A stretch of DNA of 64,000 bases from Thermoproteota archaeon (GTDB taxonomy: Archaea > Korarchaeota > Korarchaeia > Korarchaeales > Korarchaeaceae). Each line of letters opens with the position of its first letter. Positions within the stretch are counted from its first letter, which is position 1. Below are positions 1 to 18,359 of the stretch, piece by piece. Both the position numbers and the translations under genes were made by a program. The notes beneath the pieces were generated by a model, which made no database searches, was not told the DNA's origin, and saw only the letters and a program-made list of their open reading frames with translations. Location: positions 1 through 64,000 of the forward strand of contig JAMOVA010000013.1 of assembly GCA_027061785.1 (NCBI GenBank). Reading direction: 5' to 3'.

Positions 1-716
1 CCTTCCAGCGTCCGGTCCTCTCCCGACATCCTCTTCAGCTCATCTATGCTCCCCTCGGCAACCAGCTTTCCCCTGCTGATTATACCCACTTTGGTGCAGA
101 ACCTCTCCACCATGTCCAGCAGGTGGCTGGACAGGAGGACTGCTACGCCCTCACGTGCCATTCTCCTCACCTCTCCCTTAAACGCATGCTGACTCTCCGG
201 ATCCATTCCCGCCATGGGTTCATCCATTATCAGGACCTTAGGGCGCACTAGGAAGGCAGCCGAAGCTAGGACCTTCTGGATCATGCCCCTAGACAGGCTT
301 GACGCCGGTTCATCCTCCTTATCAACGATGTCGAAAATTTGCAGGTACCTGTCGATGGACTCGGAGAGCTCCTCCTTACCGATGCCTCTCAATGTACCTA
401 TCATCTCCAGAAATTCTCTCACCGTCAGATTTCGGAAGAGGACGGGGTTCTCGGGTATGTAACCTACGTACCTTAGGGCATCCACTCTCTCACGCACGAC
501 GTCGTGCCCCATTATATACGCCCTGCCACCCTGGGGGATCAGCAGCCCCACGAGTATCTTCAGCGTGGTGGTCTTACCCGCACCATTCGGCCCTAAGAGC
601 CCGTAAATCTCTCCTTCTCGCACCTCAAAGGAGAGCCCTCTGAGCGCAGTTGTCCCACCATATCTCTTGATTAGACCATGGACCTCGATGGGGCTCCTAT
701 GGGACAAACGCTCCAT
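1..716 (-). CDS. ABC-2 type transporter ATP-binding protein (3' end outside window)
   Basis: Nucleotide-binding subunit of a CcmA/ABC-2 type exporter, expected to energise a membrane permease in the cytoplasmic membrane. Reading leftwards from ATG 716, the Walker A motif GPNGAGKTTT lies at about residues 42-51, followed by a Q-loop region, the signature SLSRGM, the Walker B core LIMDEP and the switch histidine in LLSSH. About 238 codons are visible and the C-terminus runs off the left edge, so the permease partner is probably just outside. GGGGAG lies about 9 nt before the ATG, and an in-frame TTG directly precedes it. The substrate cannot be told. The family call is firm. Confidence 0.9.
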   Translation of the reverse strand, partial: MERLSHRSPIEVHGLIKRYGGTTALRGLSFEVREGEIYGLLGPNGAGKTTTLKILVGLLIPQGGRAYIMGHDVVRERVDALRYVGYIPENPVLFRNLTVREFLEMIGTLRGIGKEELSESIDRYLQIFDIVDKEDEPASSLSRGMIQKVLASAAFLVRPKVLIMDEPMAGMDPESQHAFKGEVRRMAREGVAVLLSSHLLDMVERFCTKVGIISRGKLVAEGSIDELKRMSGEDRTLE

Positions 717-877
717 CAACTGAATTCTCTCCCCTTTATTATTCAAAAAGTTAATGCACTACCCATGCATGATCAAAGTATTCATCTATAGAGTAACGGA
801 TTAACTGATCTTCCTAGGATAGAGGGTATGGCCCTACCGCAAAGCTTATGAACGTGTTACGATGATGTTCACCCCGA

Positions 878-953
878 AGCCCCGTGGTGTAGCGGCCAAG
901 CACGCCGGGCTCTGGACCCGGAGACCCCGGTTCGAATCCGGGCGGGGCTACCA
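878..953 (+). tRNA. tRNA-Gln (anticodon CTG)
   Basis: Full cloverleaf: acceptor AGCCCCG/CGGGGCT, anticodon stem CCGGG/CCCGG with loop CTCTGGA (anticodon 912-914), T-arm loop TTCGAAT. CCA is encoded at 951-953. No intron. Its body is nearly identical to the tRNA-Gln(TTG) on the other strand at 40.3 kb, so the two isoacceptors probably arose by duplication. A TATA-like GCTTATGAA sits about 30 nt upstream. Confidence 0.95.
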
Positions 954-1034: not shown

Positions 1035-1151
1035 TCAGATCATGCAGATGTGGTATTTACCAAGCCCTATATGGGCCAGGCATCCACCACAGCCGTAGTT
1101 GCGTACCTTCTCCTTTAGGTTTTCTTTCCTTCCCACAACTCTCTTCTTCAT
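1035..1151 (-). CDS. 38-residue Cys-rich peptide; candidate substrate of the neighbouring radical SAM enzyme
   Basis: Unrecognised small gene with strong expression signals. GGGGAGGT (1161-1168) lies 9 nt before ATG 1151, and a TATA-like TTTAAAAA lies about 60 nt upstream of the ATG. The first 18 residues are highly charged (many Lys/Arg/Glu, as in a leader). The last 20 are neutral and Gly-rich, with YGCGGC at 19-24, H27, H34 and C36, ending ICMI. A basic leader plus a Cys/Gly core is the layout of a ribosomally made, modified peptide, and a radical SAM gene lies 1.3 kb away. The alternative is a minimal zinc-binding microprotein, since CxxC with H34 and C36 could bind one metal. That this is a gene is likely; its function is inference. 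Confidence 0.6.
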   Translation of the reverse strand: MKKRVVGRKENLKEKVRNYGCGGCLAHIGLGKYHICMI

Positions 1152-1204
1152 ATGTATTCCACCTCCCCGGAGAAAGGCCTAATTGTTAATTAAATGGCAA
1201 CTGC

Positions 1205-1214
1205 TTTTTAAATT
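1205..1214 (-). promoter_or_regulatory. TATA-like element for the 38-residue peptide gene
   Basis: On the minus strand AATTTAAAAA lies in an A+T-rich gap after the 297-residue gene. Initiation about 25 nt downstream would give a leader of about 30 nt carrying the GGGGAGGT ribosome site. The peptide can therefore be transcribed on its own, in excess over the upstream gene. Inferred from sequence only. Confidence 0.45.
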
Positions 1215-1253
1215 CGTATTTTACAACGATATAAGTAAAGACTCGAGGTTACA

Positions 1254-2147
1254 TTAGCCAATTAACCCAGTTAGCTCGCTCTCTATGAATGACAGCTCAT
1301 CGTGAGAGAATAATTTTTTGGGCACGAAAACAGCGCTGGGGTCCGTAGATCCTCTGGTCAGCACGAAATAATAAATCTTATCCATTATACTCAAAAATAA
1401 GTCTTCCATTCCTACGGGAGGGATGTAATAAGAAAGCTCGTTACCTTCTCTCACGAAGATAATCGGCACACCTTTTATCCTGAATATCTTGCCTATCTCC
1501 ACCCTAAGAACTTCGCCGGGATCGATGTCATGCTCTGATGTAGACCGTGGGAGTAAGGTATTCTCTCTGGAATCAGAACATTTAAGCCTCCTCTCTCTTC
1601 CGTGATCATCCTCCTTAGCATCATCAACTTTCCTCTTAACGATGGACTTCTCTCCATCTGGCTTAATACTCACAGTGAAGTGATGTCCGCCTACTTTGGT
1701 GGATATTAAGAGACCACCCTCCCTCGTTACACTCATATCCTCAACAATCGATTCGAAGAGATCTCCTTCAGTGTAGTATTCATGACAGGGATCTACAGCA
1801 TATGTCGTTATATCCACATCGTCCATCACTAGGAAACTATCTTTAACAGCGAATCCATACACCTTTAGGTTAGGATTCCTGACTCTAATCCAGTATCTGC
1901 ACACTCGTCTAACGTTCACCCGTCCCTCAAAATATTGGGCACGTTTGAAAGATCCAATGACTCCAAAGCTTACCACACGGTTCTTTCCTATCCTAGACCA
2001 GGAGAGCGCATCCTCATAGAGCCTCTTAAGGATGGCTATGTCCTCTCTTGCTACTCCCCTGATCCTTTCAGGATCTATTCCACCGGTGAGCACATAGGGG
2101 GATAGCGCTCTCATCAATTCACACCATTTATTAGGTAAACTCTCCAT
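1254..2147 (-). CDS. Unknown 297-residue protein of the radical SAM cassette
   Basis: No family recognised. The sequence shows no signal peptide or membrane segment. A mixed alpha/beta N-terminal part (about 1-170) with several Cys, His and Tyr residues is joined by a charged, probably disordered linker (about 175-215) to a C-terminal domain (about 218-297). It reads divergently from the 92-residue and radical SAM genes, with only 12 bp between start codons, and the small peptide gene follows 102 bp downstream on the same strand. Codon use looks more A+T-rich than the surrounding housekeeping genes, which suggests accessory status. The context suggests a partner, transporter-independent modifier or immunity role, but this is a guess. 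Confidence 0.7.
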   Translation of the reverse strand: MESLPNKWCELMRALSPYVLTGGIDPERIRGVAREDIAILKRLYEDALSWSRIGKNRVVSFGVIGSFKRAQYFEGRVNVRRVCRYWIRVRNPNLKVYGFAVKDSFLVMDDVDITTYAVDPCHEYYTEGDLFESIVEDMSVTREGGLLISTKVGGHHFTVSIKPDGEKSIVKRKVDDAKEDDHGRERRLKCSDSRENTLLPRSTSEHDIDPGEVLRVEIGKIFRIKGVPIIFVREGNELSYYIPPVGMEDLFLSIMDKIYYFVLTRGSTDPSAVFVPKKLFSHDELSFIESELTGLIG

Positions 2148-2187
2148 TATATCTCAAGAATGCTGATAAGATGGGTCAATATAATTG
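2126..2187. promoter_or_regulatory. Interlocked divergent promoters
   Basis: Two TATA-like boxes face away from each other. ATTTATTA (2126-2133, plus) would start transcription near 2155, giving an almost leaderless 92-residue mRNA. CAATTATATTG (minus, 2177-2187) would start near 2160, giving a leader of about 12 nt for the 297-residue gene. Each box lies inside the other gene's first codons, so occupancy of one should interfere with the other. Confidence 0.35.
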
Positions 2188-2438
2188 TTAGGCTGAACAT
2201 TCCATTAATAGTTTACGTGAATGATGAGGAAGTGGATGTGATAGAACCGGATCCCGGGGAGGAAGAGGCCCTGGTTTCCTTCATCAGTAAGGTAGCCCGT
2301 TACGGTCAGCGTGATGATACAACTCCTCCAGGTTGGTTGAAGATCCCTTCTCATATACTGACGCATGAGGAAAGAGCCATAGCTAGATACCTAATGGACC
2401 ACGGAATAGTCAAGGCAGAGGAACGGGAGGTGATCTAA
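2160..2438 (+). CDS. 92-residue protein preceding the radical SAM gene (possible peptide-recognition partner)
   Basis: Not recognised with confidence. The first 30 residues predict beta strands (hydrophobic IIVRL, IVYV), then comes an acidic turn and a C-terminal helical segment resembling a small winged helix (about 66-92). Stand-alone proteins of this size next to radical SAM/SPASM enzymes are often PqqD-type RiPP recognition elements. The size, fold prediction and position fit, but I see no diagnostic motif. The ATG has no Shine-Dalgarno and may be leaderless. Its stop codon TAA (2436-2438) overlaps the proposed start of the radical SAM gene by one base, and the Shine-Dalgarno of that gene lies in its last codons, so the two are translationally coupled. 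Confidence 0.65.
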   Translation: MLIRWVNIIVRLNIPLIVYVNDEEVDVIEPDPGEEEALVSFISKVARYGQRDDTTPPGWLKIPSHILTHEERAIARYLMDHGIVKAEEREVI

Positions 2439-3325
2439 CGAAGGAAGGGAACTGGTATTTCGCTGGAGTAACGATAGAGATAACCTCTCTCTGCAACCTA
2501 GATTGTAAACATTGCCTCTTACCTGGATGGTACAGGAAGAGAAAGAAGCTACTTCCCCCTCAAAAGGTAGCGGATATTTTAGATACTGTGTGGAGGATGG
2601 GTGGATTTTACGTTGCGATAACCGGAGGGGAACCGACCCTCTATCCACACGATCGCTTGGTAGAAGTATTGAGAGAGGCGAGAGACAGAGGGATGTTCGT
2701 CATGCTCAACACAAACGCCACTAATGTCTCTGAGAAGCTCGCCGAGGAGGCGGCTAGACTTGGTGTTCAGGTTAAAGTGAGCCTGTATGGCATAGATGAT
2801 GAATCGTACAAACTCTTTACAGGGAGGCGCGTATTTAGCAGGGTCAACACCGGCCTAAAATTACTAAGAGAGAAGGGCGCTTGGCTCGATATCGACGTCG
2901 TTTACACCGCTGTCCACAGGAAATTGGGATTGCGTCCTGATGAAATGCTGGAATACGCACATAGGTTCACAGAAAATGCGAGGTTGATGGGTAAAATACT
3001 GGGTGGTTGGAGGGGAAGGGAACATGTGAAGGAACTTTCCTCAGAGACGGAAGAGGCAGTGGATCATGGAGGGGAGATATACTCCTACCATCCCTTCATT
3101 AGATTCATTCCAGGGCCCTGGGATCCCTGCGCCATAACCTACGTACCGGAACCCTATATCACAGCCGACGGATGGGTCCTCGCATGCCCTTTCGACGACG
3201 AGATCATTTCCTCGGTGTACAGTGCTAGCTGGCCGACTGTGTACCAGGAGAAGGTTGTTTCCTTCAGGAAACTCCCATGGCCCGGAGGCAGATGCAACTA
3301 CAAGAGGTTGATCGGGGAGACTTAA
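2438..3325 (+). CDS. Radical SAM protein with SPASM-like C-terminal cysteines; apparent ACG start
   Basis: Radical SAM enzyme: CNLDCKHC (C19, C23, C26) binds the 4Fe-4S cluster that cleaves S-adenosylmethionine, and GGEP is at 63-66. The C-terminal part carries C231, C250 (in the SPASM-like ITADGWVLACP) and C286, enough for an auxiliary cluster as in peptide-modifying or cofactor maturases. Numbering assumes a start at ACG 2438. No ATG, GTG or TTG occurs in frame between a stop at 2384 and the cysteine motif; the first GTG (2588) would delete the active site. GGAGGTGAT at 2426-2434 sits 3 nt before the ACG. The gene is therefore ACG-initiated, recently inactivated at its start, or misread at one base. 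Likely substrate: the nearby Cys-rich peptide (inference). Confidence 0.8.
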   Translation, partial: TKEGNWYFAGVTIEITSLCNLDCKHCLLPGWYRKRKKLLPPQKVADILDTVWRMGGFYVAITGGEPTLYPHDRLVEVLREARDRGMFVMLNTNATNVSEKLAEEAARLGVQVKVSLYGIDDESYKLFTGRRVFSRVNTGLKLLREKGAWLDIDVVYTAVHRKLGLRPDEMLEYAHRFTENARLMGKILGGWRGREHVKELSSETEEAVDHGGEIYSYHPFIRFIPGPWDPCAITYVPEPYITADGWVLACPFDDEIISSVYSASWPTVYQEKVVSFRKLPWPGGRCNYKRLIGET

Positions 3326-3352
3326 CCGAGGCCAAGTTCAGGATGCGTAATA

Positions 3353-3429
3353 TGGCGGGCCCGGGGGGCTTCGAACCCCCGACCTCCCGGTTAAGAGCCG
3401 GGCGCTCTACCATTCTGAGCTACGGGCCC
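3353..3429 (-). tRNA. tRNA-Lys (anticodon CTT)
   Basis: Acceptor GGGCCCG/CGGGCCC, anticodon stem CCCGG/CCGGG with loop CTCTTAA, T-arm GGGGG TTCGAAG CCCCC, discriminator G and encoded CCA (3353-3355). No intron. It marks the right boundary of the radical SAM cassette; tRNA genes are common integration sites, but I see no repeated attachment sequence. Confidence 0.94.
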
Positions 3430-6191: not shown

Positions 6192-7259
6192 ATGAGCGGG
6201 CCCGTAGCTCAGCAAGGATCAGAGCGCCGGCCTGCGGAGCCGGAGGTCCCGGGTTCAAGTCCCGGCGGGCCCGCCATCCTCCTGCTAATCATCCTGATCA
6301 TACCTCTGCTACCCATCTCGGGACAACGAGCTCACTTCGATGCGGTGATCGTTAGGGGAGACATATACACCGACTGGGCTGTGGCCATGGCCTACGGCAT
6401 AACCCACGGATCTTGGGTCATGCATCTAACGGCGGACAACGAGGGAGAGGTGCTCAACCTGCTCTCCGGGTTCATGAGGTTCCGTAAGGGAATGAGCATC
6501 CTCATAATAGGCGCCCCCAACGCAGTCCCCATCGAGTTCGAGGAAAAGTTGAGAGGGATGGGAGCCACCGTCAGCAGGATAGGAGGGGCGACTAGGCTGG
6601 ACACATCCCTCCTCCTAGCCATGTACTACTGGAACGACTGCGATTCCGTGGTGCTGGCTGATGGGCTCAACTCCTCCTACTACATGGTGGCGCTCTCGGT
6701 TGCCGTGGAGAGGAACGCCCCGATAATCTACACCATGAACGGCCGACCTCCCGAGGGCTTTGAAGCGGCCTTGAGGGAGCACCTCAAGGATGTGAAGAGC
6801 TTGGTGGTGATAGGAAATAGCTTGGATAGGGGGGAGGCAGCTAAGTTCACATCCCAAGGGTATAAGGTGGAGGTTATCGGGGAGATAGGAGGCAGCAAAC
6901 CCTTCTCAGGCGGGTGGTCGCCCTCATTCATAGTCAGGGAGATCCTCAATCCCCTCCCTCTCCTCACTGGTCTGCTCATCGGCCTGGCAGTGGCGATCCT
7001 GATCTACAGGCTGAGGCCCAAGCCGGGTCCCTCCGACATAATGGACTTCTTCACCGTAGATGAGAGGAAGCTCATAGAGGTCATTATGGAGAGGGGTGAG
7101 GTATCGCAGGAGGAGCTCCCCGAGCTGACGGGATTCTCCAAGCCGAAGATAAGCAGGCTGTTGAAGGATCTGGTCGACAGGAAGGTCGTGGAGAGGAAGA
7201 AATACGGCAAAACCTACTTGGTGACCCTCACGGAGAGGTTCAAGTCGCAGGTCGGTTAG
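6192..7259 (+). CDS. Membrane-anchored winged-helix regulator with cell-wall-binding-like ectodomain; start uncertain
   Basis: After a strongly hydrophobic leader (ILLLIILIIPLL, encoded from 6276) the protein has an outside domain (about 50-235) with features of the CWB2 cell-wall-binding fold (IGGATRLDTSLLLAMYY, VVLADG, VVIGNS). One membrane span follows (LLTGLLIGLAVAILIY), then a cytoplasmic winged helix (about 280-350: VSQEELPELTGFSKPKISRLLKDL). This is the plan of a one-component surface sensor that binds DNA directly. The only canonical start before the leader is ATG 6192, 6 nt upstream of the tRNA-Arg gene, which would make residues 3-29 tRNA-derived. Otherwise translation must begin at a non-standard codon or at GTG 6345, losing the leader. 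Domain calls are moderately sure, the start is not. Confidence 0.65.
   Translation: MSGPVAQQGSERRPAEPEVPGSSPGGPAILLLIILIIPLLPISGQRAHFDAVIVRGDIYTDWAVAMAYGITHGSWVMHLTADNEGEVLNLLSGFMRFRKGMSILIIGAPNAVPIEFEEKLRGMGATVSRIGGATRLDTSLLLAMYYWNDCDSVVLADGLNSSYYMVALSVAVERNAPIIYTMNGRPPEGFEAALREHLKDVKSLVVIGNSLDRGEAAKFTSQGYKVEVIGEIGGSKPFSGGWSPSFIVREILNPLPLLTGLLIGLAVAILIYRLRPKPGPSDIMDFFTVDERKLIEVIMERGEVSQEELPELTGFSKPKISRLLKDLVDRKVVERKKYGKTYLVTLTERFKSQVG
6198..6276 (+). tRNA. tRNA-Arg (anticodon GCG)
   Basis: Acceptor GGGCCCG/CGGGCCC, D-arm with an 11-nt loop, anticodon stem CCGGC/GCCGG with loop CTGCGGA, T-arm CCGGG TTCAAGT CCCGG, discriminator G, encoded CCA (6274-6276). No intron. The gene is wholly contained in the 5' end of a same-strand open frame whose hydrophobic leader begins at the last base of CCA. 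A T-rich TATA-like stretch at about 6147-6158 could drive it. Confidence 0.93.
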
Positions 7260-17291: not shown

Positions 17292-18278
17292 CTAGTGATT
17301 CGACTTCCTCCCTATCAAGAACCTCTCATATTCTTCAAGAGCATCTTCCCAGTCGAGGAACCTCTTCCTCCTGAACCACCTCTGACGGCCCATCCCTCTC
17401 CTATATTCGTACCTTCTGATCCACTCCACAGCGGCCCTTCGGCCGAGTCCGAACCTAGTGAGAATGTCAACTACATCTTTCAACTTCTCCTGCTTCCTTA
17501 CTGTGAAGAGCTTCATCCGATCATGGAATCTAATAATGGCGTCTCTTCTATACACCTCAAGCGTATAGCAATTCCTCCTAGCTATAGACCGACCCTTGGA
17601 GGTCTCTATGACCTTTCCTCTAGAGTGAACCATATAAATCTCACCGAACACTCCTAGATCTGCGAGTCTCTCTTTGATCTTCTCCATTAAATCGTAATCT
17701 GTATTACTAACTCCTATCCTAGCAAGGAAGCTACCCTGACTACTCACTAGGCCAGTAACGTATCCTTCACAGTCGAAGAATGCTTGAATAAATTCAACCG
17801 GTCTCTCCTCTAATAGGTTTAGGACATTACTACGCTCGATAAGAACATCTATGAGCTCTCTAGACTGAATCTCTACATAATATCTCCCGTCTGATAGTTT
17901 ACCTACGAAGTACGGCTTCTCCCTACCCATCAATATGCTTAACTTCCTAGCAGCCGCCTCTGCGAGCTCTCTATCCTTTACCTTTAATGAGAGGAACCTG
18001 CCCTTGCGATTTACCTTTATAGAACCGTCTCCTGCATACATACCGGCTATCCAGGCGAGTTCTTCTCTTTTAGAGAGGTCAGGAACGTTATAGGGCTCCC
18101 TCTCAGGTACATGGATCCCCCTCACCCAGTAAGATATGTGGGATCTACTGATCTTAACGCCATACTCTCCCTCGATTATCTTCTGAATTTTCCTATAACT
18201 CATCCCTCCATTGTGGAGCTCTAGAACCCTCCTGTAGAGCCTTAATCTCATAGCGTGGGGGAGCCTCCTTCCTCCCAT
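17292..18278 (-). CDS. Free-standing LAGLIDADG-type protein with N-terminal HTH
   Basis: 328 residues. An N-terminal helix-turn-helix (about 10-58: RLYRRVLELHNGGMSYRKIQKII, ISRSHISYWVRG) resembles a transposase/resolvase DNA-binding domain. It is followed by a two-repeat LAGLIDADG fold: LAWIAGMYAGDGSI (74-87, acidic residue in DGS) and FIQAFFDCEGYV (about 163-174). The C-terminus is very basic. It is not inside a host gene, intron or intein, so it is either a stranded homing endonuclease or a domesticated DNA-binding regulator. Start ATG 18278 is chosen because a TATA-like TTTTTTATA at about 18307-18316 puts initiation near 18285; the longer open frame would begin upstream of it. Confidence 0.8.
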   Translation of the reverse strand: MGGRRLPHAMRLRLYRRVLELHNGGMSYRKIQKIIEGEYGVKISRSHISYWVRGIHVPEREPYNVPDLSKREELAWIAGMYAGDGSIKVNRKGRFLSLKVKDRELAEAAARKLSILMGREKPYFVGKLSDGRYYVEIQSRELIDVLIERSNVLNLLEERPVEFIQAFFDCEGYVTGLVSSQGSFLARIGVSNTDYDLMEKIKERLADLGVFGEIYMVHSRGKVIETSKGRSIARRNCYTLEVYRRDAIIRFHDRMKLFTVRKQEKLKDVVDILTRFGLGRRAAVEWIRRYEYRRGMGRQRWFRRKRFLDWEDALEEYERFLIGRKSNH

Positions 18279-18359
18279 TGCCCTATCTTCTACTAATAGG
18301 AAGTGTATAAAAAAGTAAACAAGACTGAAACTATATATTGTAAAATGAAAGGTTAGCAT

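Follow-up and report, generated by a model that had tools for sequence, protein, structure and literature searches.

Gene content of the locus

The window (the whole stretch of 64,000 nucleotides from the start of contig JAMOVA010000013.1) derives from the genome of a heat-loving archaeon of the genus Korarchaeum, and the interval between its tRNA-Gln and tRNA-Lys genes is filled by four open reading frames (ORFs), whose products are a peptide of 38 aa, two proteins of 297 and 92 aa, and a radical SAM (rSAM) enzyme (Table 1). A preliminary description of the locus had reported these features, and much of it is borne out: all four ORFs lie at the positions it gave them between the two tRNA genes, the strong expression signals ascribed to the peptide (a TATA-like element and a strong Shine-Dalgarno sequence) recur in a relative, three extra C-terminal cysteines of the rSAM enzyme (C231, C250 and C286) are present and conserved, and the rSAM core alone matches known families, the 297-aa and 92-aa proteins having no library match. 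It had missed the copy of the 92-aa domain within the 297-aa protein and the other contents of the same slot in relatives. Judged from sequence, three of the four cassette genes belong to no known family.

Table 1. Features of the tRNA-Gln/tRNA-Lys interval (window coordinates)
Feature	Position	Strand	Remarks
tRNA-Gln (CTG)	878-953	+	left slot border; ARAGORN, Rfam
38-aa peptide MKKRVVGRKENLKEKVRNYGCGGCLAHIGLGKYHICMI	1035-1151	-	proposed precursor; conserved half, residues 20-38
Shine-Dalgarno-like GGGGAGGTGG	1159-1168	-	peptide gene; from sequence; GGAGGTG kept in relative (alignment)
TATA-like TTTAAAA	1206-1212	-	~55 nt upstream of peptide ATG; conserved in relative (alignment)
297-aa protein	1254-2147	-	no known family; conserved N-terminal region and C-terminal domain paralogous to 92-aa protein
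C-terminal domain of 297-aa protein	1257-1487	-	paralogue of 92-aa protein; hhalign, BLASTP, shuffles, own-genome profile match
Head-to-head start region of 297-aa and 92-aa genes	2090-2215	.	12-bp spacer; alignment
92-aa protein	2160-2438	+	candidate peptide-binding or partner protein
GGAGGTGATC	2426-2435	+	full anti-SD match ahead of rSAM start
rSAM enzyme, 295 aa	2438-3325	+	probable ACG start overlapping 92-aa stop (TAACG)
tRNA-Lys (CTT)	3353-3429	-	right slot border; ARAGORN, Rfam

The N-terminal half of the peptide is basic and variable, while its last 19 residues are nearly fixed between two species (GCGGCxAHIGLGxYHICxI); non-synonymous codons number 10 of 19 in the N-terminal half and 3 of 19 in the C-terminal half. 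The nearly fixed core, which includes all three cysteines of the peptide (C21, C24 and C36), argues for one conserved product instead of a diversifying antimicrobial. The TATA-like element probably acts as the promoter of the peptide gene, and such separate, strong expression (own TATA-like element as well as Shine-Dalgarno sequence) fits a substrate present in excess over the enzyme. SCIFF, an rSAM-matured peptide, is the sole family matched by both peptide orthologues in each of two libraries, the matches being weak (E 0.035-0.05); with 13.6 vs 50 bits and three cysteines instead of six, the peptide falls outside SCIFF (TIGR03973).

Conservation and distribution of the cassette

The full cassette recurs in a second Korarchaeum species with order, strands and slot all alike (locus L005 in the metagenome-assembled genome G006, JALWYH010000094.1), which brings the copies found to two, both in Korarchaeum. 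Protein identity between the two copies is 66% for the peptide, 51% for the 297-aa protein, 67% for the 92-aa protein and 73% for the rSAM enzyme. Nei-Gojobori comparison with G006 gave 17.5 synonymous changes in 23.7 sites and 17.5 non-synonymous changes in 90.3 sites for the peptide (pS 0.74 vs pN 0.19; dN/dS about 0.07) and dN/dS values of 0.15 and 0.17 for the 297-aa and 92-aa proteins, respectively, while the rSAM gene has a saturated pS of 0.80 vs a pN of 0.16. The other species has the same set in the same order and orientation, and in each frame synonymous changes greatly outweigh non-synonymous ones, so that the four ORFs are not chance frames; these substitution patterns point firmly to purifying selection on all four, and to a strong one on the peptide.

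Among 394 archaeal relatives, the profiles of the 297-aa, 92-aa and rSAM proteins each match these two genomes only, except for two weak, stop-ridden fragments detected with the 297-aa profile (E 0.005-0.008). Furthermore, no cassette gene occurs by itself in any of the 394 genomes at the thresholds applied; for the rSAM enzyme, searches of all 394 at E 1e-28 and of 178 at E 1e-17 revealed no orthologue beyond the cassette. The four genes thus appear, from their distribution, to be gained or lost together. The co-occurrence which the preliminary description proposed to look for is therefore seen in one other genome (G006) among the 394 archaeal ones; the pattern that it set against its own reading (rSAM homologues in other contexts together with an unconserved peptide frame) is the reverse of what was found.

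Apart from the cassette itself, possible relatives of the peptide were considered and rejected: 108 of the 394 archaeal genomes give a match at E<=0.5, beginning at E 0.007, and the inspected loci were judged to be chance frames lacking an rSAM neighbour. The peptide DNA pattern gave three matches in viral contigs, all out of context, and searches of viral contigs with the rSAM and 92-aa proteins returned generic rSAMs or nothing. No match to the 297-aa protein was found among plasmids and phages.

The slot between the tRNA genes

The adjacency of tRNA-Gln and tRNA-Lys is kept in 11 of 11 further Korarchaeum genomes with a readable interval, and in ten of these (including the close relatives G008 and G015, sucC 97-98% identical) the gap measures 20-260 bp. 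In G001, the slot extends over 2424 bp and holds an HD-domain gene and a 165-aa orphan in the place of the cassette. These two genes lie at L040:438-2726 (G001:C4 about 180637-182925); the HD-domain gene encodes a phosphohydrolase-like protein of 585 aa (PF19276/PF01966) with a weak PADLOC dGTPase match, and the orphan is absent from all others among 61 genomes. Homology to G008 ends at window position 972 (just past tRNA-Gln) and returns at 3352 (the end of tRNA-Lys); the slot boundary is real. The cassette is AT-rich (GC 46% vs 55% for the window), and the 297-aa gene has the lowest GC among the 64 long ORFs of the window. Being near-empty in ten Korarchaeum genomes and occupied by an unrelated HD-hydrolase pair in one, the slot has the look of a hotspot for accessory genes, perhaps with a part in defence, in keeping with the accessory island described earlier. 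An integrase-borne element was considered; the slot holds no integrase, and no tRNA 3'-end duplication was seen by eye at the right border.

Window positions 1-720 hold the gene of an ABC transporter ATPase, truncated at the start of the contig. It was rejected as a candidate exporter of the product, being absent beside the G006 cassette (where the left flank differs from that of the window) and adjoining other slot genes in G001 (about 78% DNA identity, apparently broken up). Elsewhere in the window, a 355-aa ORF (17292-18359) may also have been acquired: its GC is 45% where the median is 54%, and only one of the 64 long ORFs lies lower. The longest ORF frame at 6192-7259 opens just before a tRNA-Arg gene (6198-6276) and reads through it, and thus its real start must be downstream.

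The radical SAM enzyme

The enzyme belongs to the radical SAM superfamily (PF04055, E 9.6e-20, 71.9 bits vs a gathering score of 29.5), with a CxxxCxxC motif (C19, C23 and C26, at 2492-2515) and a GGEP motif, invariant in both species. Equally invariant is the C-terminal arrangement C231-X13-G245-X4-C250 followed by C286 (at 3128, 3170, 3185 and 3293). It agrees with the first half of the SPASM/Twitch signature, CX9-15GX4C (PMC6231123), with a further cysteine, and hence with the Twitch half of this subfamily; the second half of a full SPASM domain (CX2CX5CX3C...C, Aux II) is absent, a single cysteine following C250. The best solved full-length relative is SkfB (6EFN; alignment over residues 11-263, E 1e-5), whose C333 and C351 align with C231 and C250, and among NCBIfam models MftC, the maturase of the mycofactocin peptide, ranks first (1.4e-18, far below its cut-off). 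No N-terminal RiPP recognition element (RRE) is present, there being ~10 residues ahead of the first strand. The single rSAM relative outside the genus in the genome scan (L006, Lachnospiraceae, 32%) is immediately preceded by a PqqD protein (PF05402, 3e-7), a single case which serves as a lead only.

No in-frame ATG, GTG or TTG precedes the motif, and the first canonical start (GTG 2588) follows CxxxCxxC, so that translation must begin upstream. The most likely start is ACG 2438, which aligns with a GTG in the relative (TAACG vs TAGTG; window 2436-2440), the 92-aa stop overlapping the rSAM start in both species. The GGAGGTGATC element ahead of it matches the archaeal 16S 3' end. Either the rare start codon ACG is used for initiation or the assembly carries an error at that base.

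The 92-aa and 297-aa proteins

A shared domain links these two proteins. Residues 12-74 of the 92-aa protein align with residues 225-287 of the 297-aa protein by hhalign (E 3.5e-6), BLASTP gave 3e-5, the 297-aa profile has the 92-aa gene as its only other match in its own genome (E 0.0065), and three of four pairwise comparisons beat all 1000 shuffles, the fourth being reached by 4. The 297-aa protein therefore consists of an N-terminal region of unknown kind and a 92-aa-like C-terminal domain. Where the two genes start, head to head, the DNA is unusually conserved (about 80-90% identity vs the relative), and the first 20 codons of both genes show 24 identical vs 4 synonymous codons; this conservation, even at the synonymous level, suggests probable overlapping divergent promoters.

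The AlphaFold2 model of the 92-aa protein (pLDDT 86, from a shallow alignment of 4 sequences) has a beta-beta-beta-alpha-beta-alpha topology (E3-11, E14-21, E24-28, H35-48, E61-63 and H69-79). The protein has no Pfam match up to E 10 and no NCBIfam match up to E 1, and hhalign against real PqqD gave nothing (E 0.53); the fold search with the model returned nothing below E 0.3 in the PDB and nothing below E 0.08 in either of two libraries. The definition of an RRE includes three helices (PMC12710340), and the modelled topology, one helix short, falls outside the strict definition. The gene lies directly ahead of the rSAM gene, the position expected of a discrete RRE, and the preliminary description had called it placed like one; on profile matches and predicted fold, the RRE label fails and is unproven. 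The model of the 297-aa protein was unusable (pLDDT 43), and its single PDB profile match (7qep_MD, E 0.087) was treated as chance. Neither protein matched a PADLOC model.

Interpretation and alternatives

The locus is best explained as a self-contained rSAM peptide-maturation (RiPP-like) cassette, representing a new and rare family in Korarchaeum, and this reading is considered probable. As is characteristic of RiPP systems, a short conserved precursor gene adjoins the gene of a modifying enzyme, and the peptide is the likely rSAM substrate. The peptide would be expressed under a separate promoter and ribosome-binding site. The 92-aa protein, whose translation immediately precedes that of the rSAM enzyme, would hold the peptide and/or the enzyme and present the former to the latter, performing the job of a (PqqD-like) RRE with a fold not recognised as such. 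The SAM cluster would then abstract hydrogen and the auxiliary Twitch cluster would act on the Cys/Gly-rich C-terminal half, most likely yielding a thioether or another crosslink that involves at least one of the cysteines C21, C24 and C36. The N-terminal domain of the 297-aa protein is new, and its fusion to a further copy of the 92-aa domain makes it probable that this protein, too, binds the peptide or the enzyme, perhaps as an additional factor for processing, carriage or regulation.

This reading is favoured by the recurrence of all four genes in another species with order and slot unchanged, by the succession of 92-aa and rSAM genes with overlapping stop and start (the PqqD-PqqE order), by purifying selection on a peptide frame with a fixed Cys/Gly core, and by the Twitch signature along with SkfB as a RiPP-enzyme relative, MftC as the top NCBIfam model, the PqqD neighbour in L006 and the weak SCIFF matches. 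Against it stand the occurrence of Twitch domains in non-peptide enzymes as well (MoaA and BtrN; PMC6231123), the absence of a peptidase or exporter gene from the cassette, a 92-aa protein not recognisable as an RRE, only two cassette instances and a SCIFF score far short of its cut-off. Of the interpretation offered earlier, the peptide-maturation cassette on an accessory island is supported, with its co-occurring genes and conserved small frame; the reading of the 92-aa protein as an RRE is not borne out. More tentatively, and with some doubt, the 92-aa protein and the 297-aa C-terminus could represent a novel type of domain that binds peptide or enzyme in place of the RRE; the rSAM-modified peptide would then belong to a novel korarchaeal class, and its fixed Cys/Gly/His product would act inside the cell in the manner of a cofactor or signal.

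The conserved spacing C21-x2-C24-x2-H27-x6-H34-x-C36, with H27 and H34 invariant in both species, would also suit a small protein that binds zinc or iron (for instance in regulation or metal donation), in which case the rSAM enzyme would act on another substrate; Twitch enzymes such as MoaA and BtrN do act on small molecules. This is unlikely, however, as the nearest solved full-length relative of the enzyme modifies a peptide, no gene of a substrate pathway lies nearby, and the gene set and sizes are those of the PqqA-D-E and mycofactocin systems. Quite unlikely, too, is a defence or competition module with a viperin-like or antimicrobial-making rSAM enzyme. The hotspot character of the slot, the HD gene (weak dGTPase, a defence match) and orphan of G001, the patchy, AT-rich nature of the cassette and weak pVip matches of the enzyme (PADLOC, E 2e-13) speak for such a module, but the pVip match is confined to the rSAM core, the viperin NCBIfam model scores 41.7 vs 180 bits, behind MftC and MoaA, neither the 297-aa nor the 92-aa protein has a PADLOC match, and the nearly fixed C-terminus of the peptide does not resemble that of a diversifying antimicrobial. 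Finally, the head-to-head arrangement of the 297-aa and 92-aa genes over a 12-bp divergent spacer, its strongly conserved DNA and the common domain could indicate a separate regulatory or toxin-antitoxin-like pair with the peptide and rSAM genes as mere neighbours; the overlap of 92-aa stop and rSAM start in both species and the gain or loss of the four genes as one make this improbable.

Few archaeal RiPP products have been identified so far (PMC12144867), and no paper joining Korarchaeota, radical SAM and RiPP was found in the literature searched. A discrete partner not recognisable as an RRE, with a duplicate in a second protein, would add to the known routes by which peptides are delivered to rSAM enzymes. 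Furthermore, the four-gene cassette is compact enough for synthesis and direct testing without cultivating the archaeon.

Comparison with known systems

The PqqA-PqqD-PqqE and MftA-MftB-MftC systems resemble the cassette in having a short peptide and a small partner ahead of an rSAM enzyme with a C-terminal auxiliary-cluster domain, and MftC is the top (though sub-threshold) NCBIfam match; in contrast, the partner in the cassette is not PqqD-like, the rSAM signature is of Twitch type instead of full SPASM, the peptide is another one, and dehydrogenase or peptidase partner genes are lacking. SkfA-SkfB (sporulation killing factor, a sactipeptide) shares the combination of rSAM and Twitch, SkfB matching over nearly the full length. 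SkfB, however, has an N-terminal RRE fused to it (PMC6231123), which the cassette enzyme with its short N-terminus does not, and ligates its cluster via CXC where the cassette enzyme has the single C286; export and immunity genes are likewise absent from the cassette. With the SCIFF/CteB-type maturase system (ranthipeptides), the likeness lies in the weak match of both peptide orthologues to the N-terminal half of SCIFF, including GCGxC, whereas the number of cysteines and the score differ as given above and the rSAM enzyme lacks the full seven-cysteine SPASM set. The RRE (PF05402, PqqD) and the 92-aa protein are alike in size, gene position and three N-terminal strands followed by a helix, and differ in the overall modelled topology and in the lack of any profile or fold match. 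Among rSAM peptide systems, the cassette represents a variant that is both new and rare.
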